A model generated the notes under the pieces. That model was not told the origin of the DNA and did no database searches. It was given only the letters and a program-made list of their open reading frames with translations. Positions 30,275 to 38,997 of a stretch of 64,000 bases of DNA are shown piece by piece (the first letter of the stretch is position 1; the number at the start of each line of letters is the position of its first letter). A program made the position numbers and the translations under genes. Source of the DNA: Cyanosarcina radialis HA8281-LM2 (lineage in GTDB: Bacteria; Cyanobacteriota; Cyanobacteriia; Cyanobacteriales; CCAP-1448); the NCBI GenBank assembly GCA_019359615.1, contig JAHHHA010000014.1, positions 1 through 64,000 of the forward strand, read 5' to 3'.

Positions 30275-30715
30275 CTATTTAACAGGAACGCATCTAAAAC
30301 TTGAGATCTTACCTGCTCGTACTAAGGCTCTACCTCTACGCATACAAGCCGCCATCGATCTGTGTCTACTTCTTATCGTTCTACGTTTGGTTGTCCGGAT
30401 CGTTCTAAATTTGTTCGATCGCGTGTTTCTAATTCTAGTAGCCCCATAAACACCTGAATTTCGATCGCTATCTGATGCCGATCTCAATTGCCAAACTTTT
30501 CCACTACGCCAACATTGATATCCTCTGATGATTCCGACTCGTACCAGTCTTCTTCCTTTGGCTCTGCAAGCCGCCTTAGATCTGAACGTACCGAAAGATT
30601 GGGTACTGCTCGCTAGATATAGGGGACTGCCTGAATAAGCTATCGGCACAGAACTGACGAGCGTGGCGAGCGACACCAGAGTCGCGATTGCCATTCGTCG
30701 CAAATGTGTAGGCAT
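30275..30715 (-). CDS. Secreted protein with two C-x17-C repeats
   Basis: A 146-residue basic, exported protein of unknown function. A signal peptide of about 28 residues (MPTHLRRMAIATLVSLATLV) is followed by two copies of a roughly 30-residue motif. Copy 1 has C50 and C68 (ACRAKGRRLVRVGIIRGYQC), copy 2 has C124 and C142 (ACMRRGRALVRAGKISSFRC). A serine/arginine-rich linker separates them. The same motif with identical cysteine spacing occurs in the adjacent AHH-nuclease protein, and the upstream DNA of both is similar, so they are likely co-evolved. The motif probably forms a disulfide-linked mini-domain. Confidence 0.75.
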   Translation of the reverse strand: MPTHLRRMAIATLVSLATLVSSVPIAYSGSPLYLASSTQSFGTFRSKAACRAKGRRLVRVGIIRGYQCWRSGKVWQLRSASDSDRNSGVYGATRIRNTRSNKFRTIRTTKRRTIRSRHRSMAACMRRGRALVRAGKISSFRCVPVK

Positions 30716-30858
30716 ATTTATCTCTCTTGTAGTTGATTAAATGACAAAACTGATGTGGTTTTGACTTCTACTGATGATTGGCGAAATTAACGATATTTTT
30801 ACGCAAATCCAAACTGAAAAAAGCCTTTATCGCCAACTAGCGAGGTAGATAAGCTGTT

Positions 30859-31563
30859 CTAACTATTTAATTGTTTGCGATCCAATCCTGCATCAGCCAG
30901 AACTCTTGTCCTTGTTTTGGGGTCAAAGCGAATAGGCACATTGTGGTTGAGGATGCGACTTCGGGCATTATCTTCAACCATCTTTATCGTATAAATCAGC
31001 AATGAGTCAGGAACTTTGTCAAGACTGCCGTATTTTCTAATTAGTATTAGCCTCACGCGCTCTAGGTTGTAATTAATTAGATTGCTGTAGTTGTTATGCG
31101 ATCCCTGGTGGCCGATTAACTGAGGGTTTGCTTTTCGCGAATTAGCTGTTGAGGGCATAGGCAATATATTCGATGCTCGATCGAGATCGTATAGATTGCG
31201 TCTCCGCGCTTCAATCATCAATGGATTACTTCTTACCACTTCATCTGGTATCAAGTGATTCCTTTGCCAACCTTTCGGTACAGTGACCCGTATTTTGTTC
31301 AGATTCCTATTTATCCTCGTTCTCCGACTCAGACGCTGACGTTGTTGCGGTTTTTGCCTGAGATATCGATATACAGGGCTACATTTATATGCCCTGATAG
31401 TTCCCGATCGAACCAGTGCTTGCATTCTCGCTTCGCATTCAGCTATAGAACTGTATGTACCCATACCTTGCCAGCCTTGAGAGCGGGAAATCTTTGGAAA
31501 ATTCGCGATCGCGGCGATCGCTACCAGGGCTGAGATGCAAATCCTTCTGAACTGAGGCATCAT
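30859..31563 (-). CDS. Secreted AHH/HNH-type nuclease with C-x17-C domain
   Basis: A 234-residue exported protein. A signal peptide (about 1-28, ISALVAIAAIANFPKIS) precedes one C-x17-C motif (C43 to C61, ECEARMQALVRSGTIRAYKC), and then a nuclease-like domain of the AHH/ENDO VII group: NHLIPDEVV (His103, the NH pair in place of AHH), LYDLDRASNILPMP, and HQGSHNNYSNLIN (His152, His156). Such domains are common as toxin tips of polymorphic or contact-dependent systems. No adjacent immunity gene of a known family is seen; the downstream paralogue sharing the motif is the only candidate partner. Could instead be a scavenging nuclease. Confidence 0.75.
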   Translation of the reverse strand: MMPQFRRICISALVAIAAIANFPKISRSQGWQGMGTYSSIAECEARMQALVRSGTIRAYKCSPVYRYLRQKPQQRQRLSRRTRINRNLNKIRVTVPKGWQRNHLIPDEVVRSNPLMIEARRRNLYDLDRASNILPMPSTANSRKANPQLIGHQGSHNNYSNLINYNLERVRLILIRKYGSLDKVPDSLLIYTIKMVEDNARSRILNHNVPIRFDPKTRTRVLADAGLDRKQLNS

Positions 31564-31888
31564 CGTATCATCTCCTGAGACTAATGTTTTTTGCCAACAG
31601 TTTTATTTCACTTCCAGGACTTACGCCAAACCTCTAAATGGAGTTGCTGCGTCAGCCGTGTCTTCTACTACTGATTGGGAAGATCGAAGAAAGCTTTACG
31701 CAAATCATAGTAATAATTAAGTTTTGTAAAAAATGCATAAAAATCGGCTAGCTGAAGACAATTTCTAATAGAGTGGCGGCACTAGTGCCACTAACAACCG
31801 AGCGAAACGGTAGATGAAAATTTATTCAATCTAGACGCATTGGCTCTAGCACTTCATCCGGTATTCATAGAGAAACTGGGAGATGAAA
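31564..31888. promoter_or_regulatory. Divergent intergenic region before sigma-CHAT operon
   Basis: No gene seen. 31663-31706 resembles 30766-30808 (CTACTGATTGG ... TTTACGCAAATC), so the two C-x17-C genes share upstream sequence. A 12-bp palindrome GGCACTAGTGCC lies at 31778-31789, 100 bp before the sigma-like gene, and is a candidate operator. AAAAAATGCATAAAAA near 31730 is AT-rich. Confidence 0.4.
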
Positions 31889-32548
31889 ATGGTAGGAAAA
31901 AAATGTCAAATTTCTCCAGAGGATGACGATCGCGATCGGCAGTTACAAGAGTTAGCATTGGAAGCTCAAAAACACCCAACCCAGAGCGCTCAACGGCAAG
32001 TTGCCTTAAATCGTCTCTGGCAGGCAATTTGGAAATCGAATCGCTTAGGTCATCCCCAAAAAGGGAGATGGGAATCAAACATTTACGAGGATCTTCGCAA
32101 CGAAGCAATTTCAAGAACCTGTTTAGAAATTTGTCAAAAAATCGATCGCTATAATCCAGAATATCCGGTAATGATGTGGGTAAACAGTTGTTTGAATTTT
32201 AATTTCAAACGAGTGACCGAGGATTGTTACAAACATACATTCCTGCCATCTTTGGACGAATTGAACTACGACATCCCTGAAGAAGATACACCCTCAGAAG
32301 AGCGGTTAGAGGCTCAGTCGCTCAGGCAATTTTTGAAAAAAGATCCAGAAGGTTTACTGCAAGCAGAACGACTCCAAAAGCGGCCAGATGTGACGTTTCA
32401 ACTTTTAGCCTTGGCTAAGTATGTGGAAGCCCGAACCTGGGAGTCTATTGCCAAGGAGTTAGACATTTCGGTTCAGACCTTGTGCAGCTTTTTTAATCGG
32501 CGTTTAGATAAATTAATGCCTTATTTTCACAAGCACTTAGAGAACTAA
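31889..32548 (+). CDS. Sigma-70-like factor of CHAT/DUF1822 operon
   Basis: A 219-residue protein related to sigma-70 family factors found in cyanobacteria. The region-2-like part covers about 30-110 (LNRLWQAIWKS, YEDLRNEAISRTCLEICQKI, PVMMWVNSCLNFNFKRV), and the C-terminal helix-turn-helix is TWESIAKELDISVQTLCSFF. ATG at 31889 is preferred since GGGAG (31878-31882) lies 6 nt before it; an ATG at 31883 abuts that site. It is followed after 27 bp by DUF1822 and then by the CHAT gene. It probably directs RNA polymerase, or serves as a DNA-binding adaptor, in a pathway controlled by the CHAT protein. Confidence 0.8.
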   Translation: MVGKKCQISPEDDDRDRQLQELALEAQKHPTQSAQRQVALNRLWQAIWKSNRLGHPQKGRWESNIYEDLRNEAISRTCLEICQKIDRYNPEYPVMMWVNSCLNFNFKRVTEDCYKHTFLPSLDELNYDIPEEDTPSEERLEAQSLRQFLKKDPEGLLQAERLQKRPDVTFQLLALAKYVEARTWESIAKELDISVQTLCSFFNRRLDKLMPYFHKHLEN

Positions 32549-32575
32549 ATTAACTCGCTGGCAGAGAGATAAATT

Positions 32576-33580
32576 ATGTATCAACTCAACGAACCTTTGA
32601 CGTTTATCGTCCCACTATCCTTTGAAGCCCACGGACTAGCCGATCGCTTCCGCCGCCAGCAATCGAGTACCCAGAAAGCCAAGCAGGTTTATTTAAATAC
32701 TTTAGCGGTATATGCCGTCGATCTGTATCTGCGGTGCTTGGGCATAGAAACTGAGGTCGATAAGAGCGACAGTCGCAATCCGTTGAATCTAAAATTTATG
32801 GATGTGGCAGATTTGTATCTGAAGTCAATTGGCAAATTAGAATGTCGTCCAGTTTTGCCAGAAGCAACCATTTTGCAGATTCCGGTGGAAGTTAAAGAAG
32901 ACCGCATCGGATATGTAGCAGTCCAATTCGATCGATCGCTCAAACAAGCAACTTTACTTGGCTTTACTCCAACTCCCGTAGCGGAGTTACCCCTCAGTCA
33001 GTTGAGAGAGATGGCAGATTTTCCCGAATATTTGCATCAACTGCGACAACCATCCCGAAGCGCAGTGAATTTAAGACGATGGTTAGAGAGTATAAAAACA
33101 GGTTGGCAAAATCTGGAAGCATATTCCAGTCAGGGGGAATTAATCCCCAACTTTATTGAGGCAGGTTGGCATGAGATTGAAGCCTTTTTTGGCCCAGAAG
33201 AATTAACACCAGCTTTCAGAAGTCCTGATGAATTAATGACTGCATCTAGCGATCGAAGCACGTTTATCGAGCGAGGGAAACTGATTCGGTTGGCAACTCA
33301 AGTAACGACCCAAACGATCGTCCTGATAGTTACGCTCAATCCTCGATCGGAAGATGACACTAATATTATCGTAGAGGTTCGCCCCCAAAGCGGTCAGCTT
33401 TATCTACCGGAAATGCTGCAAGTCAAAATTCTTGATGAGAATCGAACAGCCGCGATGCAAGCAACAGCCAGCAGTACGAATCAAAATATTCAATTCGACT
33501 TCAATGCTGCCCCCACAGAACGCTTCAGCGTACAAATGGTTTTGGGAGAAACCAGCGTTATCGAAGATTTTCAGATTTAG
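32576..33580 (+). CDS. DUF1822 family protein
   Basis: A 334-residue protein of DUF1822, almost confined to cyanobacteria. The typical start is present: LTFIVPLSFEAHGLADRFRR then KAKQVYLNTLAVYAVDLYLR, and the LRQWLE-like block RSAVNLRRWLESIKTGWQNL. A second half (about 215-334) looks like a beta-sandwich domain (LIRLATQVTTQTIVLIVTLN, VEVRPQSGQLYLPEMLQVKI). No membrane segment. Function unknown. It sits between a sigma-like gene and a CHAT protease gene with gaps of 27 and 11 bp. By position it could be a substrate of the protease or an inhibitor of the sigma-like factor; both are inference. Confidence 0.88.
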   Translation: MYQLNEPLTFIVPLSFEAHGLADRFRRQQSSTQKAKQVYLNTLAVYAVDLYLRCLGIETEVDKSDSRNPLNLKFMDVADLYLKSIGKLECRPVLPEATILQIPVEVKEDRIGYVAVQFDRSLKQATLLGFTPTPVAELPLSQLREMADFPEYLHQLRQPSRSAVNLRRWLESIKTGWQNLEAYSSQGELIPNFIEAGWHEIEAFFGPEELTPAFRSPDELMTASSDRSTFIERGKLIRLATQVTTQTIVLIVTLNPRSEDDTNIIVEVRPQSGQLYLPEMLQVKILDENRTAAMQATASSTNQNIQFDFNAAPTERFSVQMVLGETSVIEDFQI

Positions 33581-33591
33581 GAGAGCTAAAA

Positions 33592-36500
33592 ATGGGCAAG
33601 TTAGCAACCTTGAGGCTGCTAGATGGCGACTTAGATCGAGGCCTGCGGGTGTTACTGACGATCGATGCTTGGGATCTTGCGGGAGAAGTCGAACGACCTC
33701 ATGCCAGTATTGAGGTTGACAGAACGTTACCCCCAAACCCTGCGTTGGCTGACGCGATCGATCGGTGGGAATCTAACTACCGCAGTTTGGGTTCGACTCG
33801 CATTCGTCCCAACAAAACTACCTATGATGCTTCAATTAATCAACGCCGTTTAGTTTGCCAAAAATTGGAAAAATTAGATGAGCAATTGCGATCGCAACTC
33901 AATACTTGGCTCTCTTCGCCCTCTTTTAGTCCTATTCGAGATAAGTGGCTGGAAGAACTGATGAAAGATGAAGTTCGAGTTCTAATTCGCACTTCAGATC
34001 GATCGCTGTTGAAACTTCCCTGGCACTTATGGGATTTAATCGAACGCAATCCCCTGGCAGAAGTAGCGTTAAGTGCCATCGATCGAGAACATACGCTCGC
34101 GCAGCAAACACCAACCTTGCGGGGAAAAGTCAAGATTCTCGCTATTTTAGGCAATAGTAAGGGCATCGATATCGAGAAAGATCGACAGTTATTAGCAAAT
34201 ATCGCTGGTGCTGAAACCAGCTTTTTAGTCGAACCGCAGCGGCGGGAAATTAACGACCAGTTGTGGGATCGAGATTGGGACATTCTGTTCTTTGCTGGTC
34301 ACAGTGAGACAAAAGGCGATCGAGGCATAATTTACATCAACCAGACCGATAGTTTGACGATCTCAGATCTCAAACATGGCTTGCAAAAGGCAGTAGATAA
34401 AGGATTGCAACTGGCAATTTTCAATTCCTGCGATGGCACGGGATTGGCGTTTGAGTTGGAACAATTACATTTGCCCCTAACGATCGTCATGCGAGAACCA
34501 GTACACGATGAAATTGCCCAAGAGTTTCTCAGATATTTTCTGCCTGCATTTGCCAGCGGTCGATCGCTTTATTTAGCAGAAAGAGAAGCCAGGTTGAGGC
34601 TGCAAGGTCGGGAAGACGAATTTCCAGGTGCTAGTTGGCTGCCCGCGATCTTTCAATCTCCAGCAATCGCACCTCCCACTTGGGCAGATCTAGGGCGACG
34701 ACCGACCTCCATTTGCCCCTATCGCGGGTTGTTTGCCTTTCGCGAAGAAGATGCGCTATTTTTTCACGGACGGGAAAGTTTTACCCAAATCTTAGTCGAA
34801 GCAGTACAAAGGCACTCTTTCGTCAGCGTCATTGGGGCTTCTGGGAGCGGTAAATCTTCGGTTGTCTTTGCCGGACTGGTTGCCGAACTCCGCCAACAAA
34901 GTTCCTGGGAAATTGCAGCGTTTCGACCAGGACAAAGACCATTGCAAGCGATCGCCACCGCTTGGGTTAAACTCAAAACGCCCGCTCTCTCTCCAGCCGA
35001 ACAACTCGAATCGATCCTGCAACTAGCTGAAACCTGGAGCGAGAACGAAACTGCGCTCTATGCTGCGATCGAGGAAGCAATTTGGCAAGCGCCTGGAACC
35101 AAGCTATTAATCGTTATCGACCAGTTTGAGGAACTCTATACCCAGTGTCAGGATGTCAAAGAACGTCAGACTTTTATCGATCGCCTGCTGAAAGTGACTG
35201 AGTTGACCAATGTGGCTCTGGTACTGACGCTGCGAACGGACTTTTTAGGACAGGCACTAGCTTATCCTTCTCTGGCAGACGTTCTCCAGCATGGGAATCG
35301 GATGTTGGGGGGGATGAGTCGCGCGGAACTACAATCGGCGATCGATCTCCCCGCTGGACTCTTGGGCGTAACCATCGAAGCCGGACTGACAGAACGGATC
35401 GTCGAGGCCGCGAGCAATGCTGACAGAAACTTACCGCTGTTGGAATTTGCCCTGCAACAACTGTGGGAAAAACGACAAGGGGTGCTGTTAACTCACGCGG
35501 CTTATGAGGAAATCGGCGGCTTGGAAGCCGCCATCGCCCGTCATGCCGAACGGACTTACGATCGGCTTAACGATTCAGAAAAAGAGCGATCGCGTCCAAT
35601 CTTTTTACAATTAGTTCGTCCGGGTGAGGGAACTGTAGATACTCGTCGCGTGGCGACTCGCACTGAGATTGGGGACGACCACTGGGGGCTAGTGACGCGC
35701 TTAGCCTCAGATCGATTGTTAGTGACGGGACAGGATGCGATCGGTCAAACTGAAACTGTGGAGTTAATTCATGAAGCTTTAATTTCCCAATGGAGTCGTT
35801 TGCAAGGGTGGATCGAGGAAAACCGCGACTTTCGCCTCTGGCAAGAGAGATTGCGGGCCGCCATGCAGCAATGGGAAAAAAGCGATCGCGATCGAGGAGC
35901 ATTACTACAGGGCAAACTGTTATCTGAGGCTGAAACTTGGTGGCAAAAGCGATCGCAGGAGTTAACAGCAGAGCGAGAATTTATTGCCGCTAGCGCGGCA
36001 GATCGTCAAAGGTATAAACGGCAGAAAATCCTAATTTTTGGTAGCGTATCGGCGATCGGACTCTTGTTAGCAATAGTTGCTGGTGTAGCTGCTTGGCAAA
36101 CCAACACTGCCAACGTCAAAGCCCAACTCCGGGAGCTTGTTGCTGCTTCAGAAACGCTTTTTAAGGTATATCAGCAAAAGAAGAAAGACGAAGAGTACAG
36201 CCAAAAACCGTACAACACAGAATTTAAGCAGAAGCAAGATCTCGATCGACTGCGCCAAGATTCGATCGATAGCTACCAAGATGCTCTTTTAGCAGCACTG
36301 AAAGCCGGAAGAACGTTAGAACAAACAATTTACCCTGTTGACTTAACTACGCGCTTCCAGGTTATAACTACCTTGAATCAAGCAGTTTATGAAGGAAAGT
36401 TTGGCACGAAAATTAAGTACCCAGGATGTGAATTCTTCCCCAAAAGACTTTCTATTAGCATGAGTGCTGACCGCAAGGCGATCGCGTGTTCCTATTCTGA

Positions 36501-38997
36501 TGGCACGGTGAGATTATTCAACAGCCTCACGGGTAAGGAATTGAATGTCTTTAAAGGCGATGCCAATTGGGTAAACGATATTCGCTTTAGTCCAGACGGT
36601 AAAACTATGGCATTTGGCACTATAGAAGGAGACGTGCATCTTTGGAATCTTGTTACTAAAAAGATTGTTAAAACCCTTAAGGGACATCATAGTGAGGTCA
36701 GCAGCCTCGGTTTTAGTCCAGATGGACAAGTAATTGCAGCCGGAACCTTTGATGGACTAATTACACTTTGGAATATTTCCACAGGTCAAAAACTTAAAAC
36801 CTTGAACGGTCGTTCGAGAGGAGTACATCAAATTCAGTTTAGCCCAGATGGTCAGACGATCGCGTTTGTAGGTGTCGATGATGGCAAGATAAAATTGTGG
36901 AATATTCAAACAGATAAATTATCCCCAGGTTTACCTTGCAAGAGTGAAGTCAGATGCAACGAAACTAATATTTATTTTGGTACTGACGATCGGACAATTA
37001 CTTATTCTGGCGACTTCTATGATGCAACGCTGTGGGATATCAAGGCTAATCGAGAAATCAAAACTATTAAAGGAAAAATAGGCGAGAATCAATTTGTCAG
37101 CCCTGATGGAAAAATCGCTGCATCTGGTGTAGCTAAAAGTGGAAACAATACAGTTATTTTAAGGGATGTCTCAACGGGCAAAATTTTGAAGACACTTAAC
37201 GCCCAGGCTGGTCAACTCAGTCCTCAATCTTTAAGGTGGAAAAATCTCTATGGTACTGGCAGCAGGGTTAACAATATTGGTTTTAGCCCCGATGGTAAAT
37301 CGATCGTCGTTGCTAGTGCCGATCGCACCATGACTTTGTGGGATAGCAGCAAGGGGACAAAACTTAAAACTTTCCAGGGTCTAATAGAGTGGACGGGGAG
37401 CATCGATTTTAGCCCTAACGGTAAACTGATTGCCACTACGGGGATGGATTCTAATAATCGACAAAGCGAAGTCAAACTATGGGATATTTCGACGGGGAAA
37501 TTATTCAAGACCTTAATCCAGGAGCCTGCCCCAAGCGAGGACGGAATCTCGCGACAGGTTCGTTTTAGCCCAGACAGTCAAACGATCGCGGTTATTAGTT
37601 CGGATAGCACTGTAAGGCTCTGGAACCTTTCGACAGGTCAAGAACTAAATATACCTGGATTGACAAATTCTACTCCGATAAATCGTCCTCAAACTTTCGT
37701 GCAGAAGGGCAAAATAATTGCGTCTAAAATGCCAGATGGTAGAGTGAGAAAGTCGGATCGTTCTACTGGGAAAGAACTCGAACCAATTTACTGGAAAAAG
37801 ATACTTGCAAGCGATGTTAAATTTAGCGATGATGGCAAGGCGATCGCAGTGGTAAATTGGGATGGTGTAAAAAAGGTTAGGGATATTTCAACAGGCCGAG
37901 AATTAAATTCTTTACGACTCGACTTTCCTTTTGCTAGCAGCATTATTTTTAGCGATGATGATAGTACGATCGCGGCGGCAACCCCTAATGGCGTGAAAGT
38001 ATGGAATGCCTCTACTGGCAAAGAAATTATTACTTTCAAAGGCGATACCAACAGTTCTGATGACTGGGTAATAGAAAACCTTTTCTTTAGTCCAGACGGT
38101 AATACCATTGTGACCATAGATAATATCGATCCCTCAAGCGAGCTAACTGGGGTTGGTTTGGAACTCACCCAAGATTCAAAAAACAACGATCTGACCGTCC
38201 TCTCGCCTGTGAAAGGATCTCCTGCTGAGGTAGCGGGCGTTCGCTCTCAGGATATCATCGTCAAGATTGACGCTAAGACTACCAAGGGCATGAACGTGAA
38301 TGAGGCGGTTAATCTCATCCGAGGACCAATAGGCAGCAAAGTGGTGCTTACCGTGCGTCGGGGGAGCGAGCTACTGATCTTCCCGCTGACCCGCGCTCGC
38401 ATTGGGCTGCATGAGAAAAATACGCTACAAGGAGATGCCCAAAATCAGACCTCAAACAGGTTTACTAATCAAAATCAGACCTCAAACAAGTTTATTAAGC
38501 TCTGGAACGTTCAAACAGGTAAAACTATTGAAACCTTTAGATCGCAACTAAATTCAGCTAACGATATTGTATTTAGTCCCGACGGTCGGACAATTGCTTT
38601 TGCTAAGACTGATGGTGCGATCGAACTGCGAGATTTTTCAACTGGCAAACCGATTACAACGCTCGCTCGACATCTCAAACAGGTCGATCGTATCAATTTC
38701 AGTCCAGATGGGAAAATGCTGATTTCAATTACTGGTGTTGGTTTATTTGCCGATGAAATGAAACTGTGGGATCTCGCAACTGGTCAAGAAATCAAAACTT
38801 ATAAAGAAACTCTTGGATGGAATATCCCAGGAAGGAACGGCTTTCTGTTTAGCCCTGACGGTAAAACGATCTTTTTATTCGATTATGACGGTAAGGTAAC
38901 TCCCTGGAATCTCGATCTGGAAGATTTATTAAAACGAGGCTGCGATCGCCTGCGGGACTATCCGCAAGCCGATGAAGTATGCGGATCGAACAAATAG
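33592..38997 (+). CDS. CHAT protease-STAND ATPase-WD40 protein with inserted PDZ
   Basis: An 1801-residue multidomain protein. An N-terminal region (1-130) precedes a CHAT caspase-like domain with His237 (FFAGHSE) and Cys280 (FNSCDGTG). A novel-STAND (nSTAND1) ATPase follows PYRGLFAFREEDALFFHGRE, with Walker A GASGSGKSS (Lys421) and Walker B LLIVIDQFEELY (Asp510). A single membrane segment spans about 813-838 (ILIFGSVSAIGLLLAIVAG). The remaining 950 residues are WD40 repeats (FSPDG...LWN), interrupted by a PDZ domain at about 1520-1605 (GVGLEL...GSPAEVAGVRSQDIIVKIDA). Start ATG has AGGAG 8 nt before it. The likely model is sensing through WD40/PDZ, ATP-driven oligomerisation, and CHAT proteolysis. 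It is the third gene of a sigma-DUF1822-CHAT run. Confidence 0.92.
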   Translation: MGKLATLRLLDGDLDRGLRVLLTIDAWDLAGEVERPHASIEVDRTLPPNPALADAIDRWESNYRSLGSTRIRPNKTTYDASINQRRLVCQKLEKLDEQLRSQLNTWLSSPSFSPIRDKWLEELMKDEVRVLIRTSDRSLLKLPWHLWDLIERNPLAEVALSAIDREHTLAQQTPTLRGKVKILAILGNSKGIDIEKDRQLLANIAGAETSFLVEPQRREINDQLWDRDWDILFFAGHSETKGDRGIIYINQTDSLTISDLKHGLQKAVDKGLQLAIFNSCDGTGLAFELEQLHLPLTIVMREPVHDEIAQEFLRYFLPAFASGRSLYLAEREARLRLQGREDEFPGASWLPAIFQSPAIAPPTWADLGRRPTSICPYRGLFAFREEDALFFHGRESFTQILVEAVQRHSFVSVIGASGSGKSSVVFAGLVAELRQQSSWEIAAFRPGQRPLQAIATAWVKLKTPALSPAEQLESILQLAETWSENETALYAAIEEAIWQAPGTKLLIVIDQFEELYTQCQDVKERQTFIDRLLKVTELTNVALVLTLRTDFLGQALAYPSLADVLQHGNRMLGGMSRAELQSAIDLPAGLLGVTIEAGLTERIVEAASNADRNLPLLEFALQQLWEKRQGVLLTHAAYEEIGGLEAAIARHAERTYDRLNDSEKERSRPIFLQLVRPGEGTVDTRRVATRTEIGDDHWGLVTRLASDRLLVTGQDAIGQTETVELIHEALISQWSRLQGWIEENRDFRLWQERLRAAMQQWEKSDRDRGALLQGKLLSEAETWWQKRSQELTAEREFIAASAADRQRYKRQKILIFGSVSAIGLLLAIVAGVAAWQTNTANVKAQLRELVAASETLFKVYQQKKKDEEYSQKPYNTEFKQKQDLDRLRQDSIDSYQDALLAALKAGRTLEQTIYPVDLTTRFQVITTLNQAVYEGKFGTKIKYPGCEFFPKRLSISMSADRKAIACSYSDGTVRLFNSLTGKELNVFKGDANWVNDIRFSPDGKTMAFGTIEGDVHLWNLVTKKIVKTLKGHHSEVSSLGFSPDGQVIAAGTFDGLITLWNISTGQKLKTLNGRSRGVHQIQFSPDGQTIAFVGVDDGKIKLWNIQTDKLSPGLPCKSEVRCNETNIYFGTDDRTITYSGDFYDATLWDIKANREIKTIKGKIGENQFVSPDGKIAASGVAKSGNNTVILRDVSTGKILKTLNAQAGQLSPQSLRWKNLYGTGSRVNNIGFSPDGKSIVVASADRTMTLWDSSKGTKLKTFQGLIEWTGSIDFSPNGKLIATTGMDSNNRQSEVKLWDISTGKLFKTLIQEPAPSEDGISRQVRFSPDSQTIAVISSDSTVRLWNLSTGQELNIPGLTNSTPINRPQTFVQKGKIIASKMPDGRVRKSDRSTGKELEPIYWKKILASDVKFSDDGKAIAVVNWDGVKKVRDISTGRELNSLRLDFPFASSIIFSDDDSTIAAATPNGVKVWNASTGKEIITFKGDTNSSDDWVIENLFFSPDGNTIVTIDNIDPSSELTGVGLELTQDSKNNDLTVLSPVKGSPAEVAGVRSQDIIVKIDAKTTKGMNVNEAVNLIRGPIGSKVVLTVRRGSELLIFPLTRARIGLHEKNTLQGDAQNQTSNRFTNQNQTSNKFIKLWNVQTGKTIETFRSQLNSANDIVFSPDGRTIAFAKTDGAIELRDFSTGKPITTLARHLKQVDRINFSPDGKMLISITGVGLFADEMKLWDLATGQEIKTYKETLGWNIPGRNGFLFSPDGKTIFLFDYDGKVTPWNLDLEDLLKRGCDRLRDYPQADEVCGSNK

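Follow-up and report, generated by a model that had tools for sequence, protein, structure and literature searches.

Three adjacent genes of the cyanobacterium Cyanosarcina radialis HA8281-LM2 raise the question of whether a protease can govern transcription through a dedicated sigma factor outside of a CRISPR system. The genes lie on the + strand of a 64,000-nucleotide stretch of DNA (assembly GCA_019359615.1, contig JAHHHA010000014.1, positions 1-64,000; here called the window), with intergenic gaps of 27 and 11 bp. They encode a divergent sigma factor of the extracytoplasmic function (ECF) type (31883-32548, 221 amino acids), a DUF1822 protein that we propose to be an anti-sigma factor (32576-33580, 334 amino acids; PF08852, E=3e-62), and a predicted transmembrane sensor protease of 1801 amino acids (33592-38997) with the domain order EACC2-CHAT-nSTAND1-transmembrane segment-WD40-PDZ. 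A first-pass annotation of this DNA had reported the three genes, their common strand and their spacing, all of which were confirmed as open reading frames (ORFs); the sigma gene starts at 31883, the previously given 31889 being the next in-frame ATG.

We consider that the three genes form a signal switch, in which the CHAT protease cuts or displaces DUF1822 and so frees the sigma factor, a proposal whose chances we judge to be about even. The third protein would be a transmembrane protease, with its EACC2-CHAT and STAND portions in the cytoplasm and its WD40/PDZ portion across the membrane as the sensor. The N-terminal domain of DUF1822 (N-domain) would hold the ECF-type sigma factor inactive, and its C-terminal beta-sandwich (C-domain) would dock on the EACC2 domain. 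The CHAT protease would be activated by a signal, which the STAND NTPase would gate in this copy, and would cut DUF1822 in its flexible linker, the best candidate site lying after Arg215, or release it otherwise. The freed sigma factor would then join RNA polymerase and transcribe a presumed regulon.

The precedent for such a switch is the CHAT protease of the Csx29-Csx30-CASP-sigma system of type III-E CRISPR Craspase (PMC10028731). Both systems contain a CHAT protease, a two-domain intermediate with a flexible linker, and an ECF-type sigma factor; Craspase is an RNA-guided effector, whereas the protease described here is fused to a predicted membrane sensor, and no CRISPR-like repeats (23 identical bases at a spacing of 50-90) were found in the window, in a search that was not directed at Cas7-11. 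Given the lack of such repeats and of shown homology to Csx30, we do not file the locus as a member of the Craspase family. The idea of a CRISPR-free protease-sigma switch with DUF1822 as the intermediate, put forward in the first-pass annotation, gains support from gene linkage, phylogenetic profile, a sister-class fusion, co-evolution and domain anatomy, although the likeness to Csx30 is one of logic rather than of shown descent. The gene set itself has been known since 2021, when Kaur et al. described EACC2-caspase genes accompanied by an ECF sigma factor and DUF1822, called the latter a 'TPR (tetratricopeptide repeat) protein', and proposed autoproteolysis (PMC8195603); what is new here is evidence that supports DUF1822 as the partner of the sigma factor. 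In the literature searched we found no paper explaining DUF1822, and the available part of a survey of cyanobacterial sigma factors (PMC11119718) does not mention this operon.

Gene order links the three families well beyond the window. The source genome carries five DUF1822 genes, with a sigma-like gene directly upstream of all five and a CHAT gene directly downstream of three. In a first sample of 65 loci with 68 DUF1822 genes, selected by best DUF1822 score and hence non-random, a sigma gene lies directly upstream of 61 of the 68 and a CHAT gene downstream of 42. A second sample of 40 loci has the sigma gene in 30, CHAT as the next gene in 27, and both in 20. Most of the members lacking CHAT constitute one subfamily, in which a DUF1822 protein of ~390 amino acids is paired with a sigma gene product of ~400 amino acids. 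A CHAT-centred scan returned at least 561 related stretches, and DUF1822 lies directly upstream of CHAT in 50 of the 67 retained CHAT-centred loci whose upstream sequence sufficed. Many genera share the arrangement; a gene order limited to close relatives was the outcome that the first-pass annotation had named as fatal to its idea. Among genomes of the same order, counted by hand, a strong EACC2-CHAT match (E<=1e-50) is present in 65 of 71 that have DUF1822 and in 0 of 12 that do not (Fisher p=1.9e-10, a value that overstates independence because the genomes are related). DUF1822 forms a large family, its matches numbering up to seven per genome, and no natural fusion of sigma to DUF1822 or of DUF1822 to CHAT was seen among the sampled ORFs.

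Does DUF1822 then resemble an anti-sigma factor? In a sister class of genomes of ~2 Mb, from another class of the same phylum (probably Vampirovibrionia), the DUF1822 match spans the N-domain only. At one sister-class locus, L217, the N-domain is followed by a zf-HC2 segment above the Pfam cut-off (E=1.3e-6); this segment is weaker in four other sister-class loci and degenerate in most. Next to the gene for the N-domain protein lies a sigma gene in 18 of 21 sister-class loci, and the two of these sigma proteins that were scanned both pass the NCBIfam sigma cut-off. The sister-class proteins, with an N-domain and then a zf-HC2-like segment beside an ECF sigma gene, resemble zf-HC2 anti-sigma factors, from which the window DUF1822 differs in having a linker and an Ig-like domain and no match to the zinc finger (H-x3-C-x2-C). 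As judged from sequence, the sister class ties the DUF1822 N-domain to a probable anti-sigma function independently of CHAT.

Co-evolution of the domains was assessed from evolutionary distances in 30 non-redundant triads, with correlations corrected for reliability. Distances correlate at 0.90 between sigma and the DUF1822 N-domain and at 0.91 between the C-domain and EACC2, and at 0.70 between the N-domain and the C-domain; once DUF1822 is taken into account, sigma and CHAT show a partial correlation of 0.02. In 70% subsampling, all four contrasts kept a positive sign in at least 98% of the draws, and a pooled set of 43 triads retains the effect. If physical linkage were all that mattered, the halves of a single gene would be expected to agree best, so this result points to two modules within DUF1822.

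The window sigma protein has no Pfam match and a sub-threshold match to the NCBIfam sigma model TIGR02937 (E=3e-4). Its AlphaFold2 model (mean predicted local distance difference test score, pLDDT, 87) contains a four-helix sigma2-like domain (amino acids 12-119), a flexible or disordered linker (120-136) and a sigma4-like domain (139-220). Of the eight best PDB matches returned by Foldseek, all but one are ECF sigma factors, the exception being a chain from an RNA-guided transcription complex; the matches include sigmaE with RseA and AlgU with MucA; their E-values are modest (best 0.03), presumably because the arrangement of the domains is flexible. The ECF organization of sigma2 and sigma4 joined by a flexible linker is seen in the model and its PDB matches, with the sequence models remaining below threshold. 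In two relatives (L119:2400-4976 and L120:130-2706), the sigma factor is itself part of a fusion with a NACHT NTPase and HEAT repeats, and the fusion gene immediately precedes DUF1822 and CHAT.

The AlphaFold2 model of the window DUF1822 (39 sequences; pLDDT 82) shows two confidently modelled domains, the proposed sigma-binding N-domain (amino acids 5-159; 32588-33052) and the proposed EACC2-docking C-domain (229-334; 33260-33577). The latter is an Ig-like sandwich, a common fold, with middling structural matches (best VIA Z 8.3). In the model, this alpha/beta N-domain and beta sandwich contain no TPR, on which basis we reject the description of this copy as a TPR protein. A comparison of the DUF1822 profile with PDB chains by sequence gave no significant match; whether a Csx30 chain was among them was not checked. 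The inter-domain linker (160-228; 33053-33259) is mostly modelled at pLDDT below 50 (160-190 and 206-228) and includes a conserved Trp169/Trp198 segment. Within its second disordered segment, Arg215 (codon AGA, 33218-33220) has a weighted frequency of 0.94 and carries 3.6 bits, all other positions of the segment falling below 2, and the motif [FLMAW]R[SGN] is found in 61% of 72 non-redundant DUF1822 linkers versus 8-10% of shuffled ones. In the alignment, Arg215 looks like part of a short functional motif or like a cleavage site, and we regard it as the candidate P1 residue for CHAT. Long DUF1822 homologues have, by eye, HEAT-like inserts after this residue. In the window protein the conserved linker Trp-helix is apparently duplicated (amino acids 166-205, ..WLESIKTGWQNLEAY..NFIEAGWHEIEAFF..), unlike in nearly all homologues.

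The protease appears intact, as the first-pass annotation had stated for its catalytic dyad and Walker motifs. The N-terminal domain (amino acids 1-165; 33592-34086) is conserved in the family alignment and occupies the position of EACC2 in PMC8195603, from which we infer its membership. The CHAT peptidase domain (~175-362; 34114-34677) matches PF12770, as do all 43 family members scanned. Its catalytic His237 (codon CAC, 34300-34302; motif FFAGH) and Cys280 (codon TGC, 34429-34431; motif FNSCDG), together with D306, are invariant in 63 of 63 aligned relatives, and Glu302 is present in 58 of the 63. An 'MREPxxD' stretch of CHAT lies in what we take to be the place where separases carry an acidic, Arg-selecting S1 residue, and would fit a basic P1. 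The nSTAND1 NTPase follows (376-768, 34717-35895; PF20703, E=9e-117), with the P-loop GASGSGKS (415-422, 34834-34857) and an acidic Walker-B-like IVIDQFEE.

Between the STAND and WD40 portions is a predicted transmembrane segment (amino acids 813-831, 36028-36084; Kyte-Doolittle 2.47). The WD40 repeats, which begin at ~950 and, like nSTAND1, give strong Pfam matches, contain an inserted PDZ-like stretch (~1511-1613) that resembles CtpC-type models; this portion (36430-38997) is predicted to be an extracytoplasmic sensor, across the membrane from the protease, and neither this placement nor the transmembrane segment was in the first-pass annotation. C-terminal parts are variable in the family, with CHASE2 in 25, Peripla_BP_6 in 7 and nSTAND1 in 3 of 43 members, as well as WD40 and others, and a transmembrane-like segment follows CHAT in 130 of 140 homologues with a tail. 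With variable tails and such a segment, the family appears to consist of proteases on the cytoplasmic side that are joined to sensors outside the cytoplasm. Among relatives, the one closest to the window CHAT (L099:6001-7620) has a VHL-beta-like domain in place of STAND-WD40.

Several results weigh against the proposed switch. A sigma gene is absent from the position directly upstream in 20 of 58 DUF1822-CHAT loci, and the many DUF1822-sigma pairs without an adjacent CHAT gene imply that CHAT is not the sole regulator. The anti-sigma role is assigned through guilt by association, and DUF1822 could instead be a co-activator of the sigma factor; only one zf-HC2 match exceeds the Pfam cut-off, and the N-domain fold was not identified, the Foldseek and VIA lists being filled by the C-domain. 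In an independent set of 13 triads, three of the four co-evolution contrasts have the same sign, weakly, and recombination within the linker could yield the split as well as binding could. Arg215 is retained in 24 of 27 DUF1822 proteins without an adjacent CHAT gene versus 95 of 99 with one, and also in two loci from genomes that lack a strong EACC2-CHAT; this equal conservation weakens the cleavage reading, in that Arg215 may not be the CHAT site, and excludes the motif as an exclusive mark of CHAT-linked DUF1822.

The retention of Arg215 in the absence of CHAT would fit two other accounts. According to the model proposed by Kaur et al. (PMC8195603), the caspase mainly cleaves itself upon sensing, and sigma and DUF1822 form a downstream transcriptional arm in which DUF1822 is an adaptor rather than a substrate. 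The STAND, WD40 and CHASE2-type variable tails fit such self-activation, but this model, which we consider unlikely, leaves unexplained both the co-evolution of the C-domain with EACC2 and the near-obligate presence of DUF1822 in genomes with EACC2-CHAT, and the model of the window DUF1822 lacks TPRs. The neighbourhoods described in that study are the same as ours in their caspase/CHAT domain, probably also in the constant alpha+beta N-terminal domain that precedes it, and in their variable C-terminus, including STAND and PDZ, and the adjacent ECF sigma and DUF1822 genes; they differ in the TPR label and the autoproteolysis proposed there, as against a modelled two-domain, likely anti-sigma protein with a candidate cleavage linker, and proteases that are mostly predicted transmembrane sensors, here. 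Alternatively, EACC2-CHAT might bind DUF1822 and displace it from sigma without proteolysis, the protease having other substrates and Arg215 belonging to a motif that folds upon sigma or EACC2. The conserved Trp169/Trp198/Arg215 segment, disordered on its own, suggests such coupled folding; we nonetheless regard this account as quite unlikely, since the invariance of the dyad indicates that catalysis is under selection and the known precedent of a CHAT protease acting on an anti-sigma factor is proteolytic (PMC10028731).

We return, then, to proteolytic release of the sigma factor by a signal-responsive CHAT protease, for which there is a further parallel. In the RseA/DegS and RsiW cases, cited in PMC10028731, it is likewise a protease switched on by a signal that strips the ECF sigma factor of its anti-sigma factor. 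The proposed system differs in having a soluble anti-sigma candidate and in placing the predicted transmembrane sensor on the protease itself, together with a cytoplasmic caspase-like domain. HetF, a CHAT protease of heterocyst-forming cyanobacteria that has been associated with the level of PatU3 during differentiation (PMC12288457), has a related CHAT region (NF045509, E=9e-7) but is described with CHAT, transmembrane and TPR parts and without sigma-DUF1822 partners (PMC8406250).

CHAT genes also occur in other arrangements. A gene for a TPR-CHAT protein of ~900 amino acids lies between sigma and DUF1822 at L172, L143 and L139 (e.g. L172:1048-5807), giving two CHAT proteins per cluster, and a pentapeptide-repeat protein with a C-terminal CHAT domain (L009:8431-11157) is encoded 1.8 kb downstream of the fifth DUF1822 gene of the source genome. 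A DUF928 gene follows two CHAT genes that have no upstream DUF1822 (L121:4848-5684 and L154:2370-3137), and many other CHAT genes of the set precede genes of similar size to the DUF928 ones, a likeness judged by size.

A third alternative is that the genes serve defence or programmed death, as a STAND/caspase conflict system, in which CHAT would cut many proteins upon invasion and sigma would induce defence or death genes. CHAT and nSTAND domains do occur in conflict systems (PMC8195603, PMC10907252), and the relative at L119 carries the NACHT-HEAT-sigma fusion. This alternative is nevertheless improbable: PADLOC gave just one weak match, to the P-loop region, no defence island was recognized around the window copy, and the multiple paralogues present in one genome, bearing CHASE2 or ligand-binding tails, have the appearance of signalling proteins. 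Upstream of the triad (30275-31563, - strand) are two divergent, secreted-looking genes that are similar to one another, one with an AHH nuclease domain. Neither these nor the VIT-VWA and CBS neighbours have counterparts in related loci, except for a weak CBS match, and we have rejected the flanking genes as conserved parts of the system.

On a wider scale, we tentatively suggest, with distinctly less confidence than for the switch itself, that cyanobacteria possess a widespread family of transmembrane CHAT proteases, each made of one protein, in which the extracytoplasmic sensors are interchangeable. Every such protease would be wired to its own ECF-like sigma factor by a dedicated two-domain DUF1822 anti-sigma factor, with the N-domain on sigma, the C-domain on EACC2 and a cut at the linker Arg, in several paralogous lines per genome that together would be a CRISPR-free counterpart of the Craspase switch. 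The split into two modules and the linker Arg allow direct mutational tests. If DUF1822 is a protease-controlled anti-sigma factor, the sigma switch of Craspase would gain a parallel that operates without CRISPR, and hundreds of loci with swappable sensors would represent a whole, testable layer of cyanobacterial gene control.

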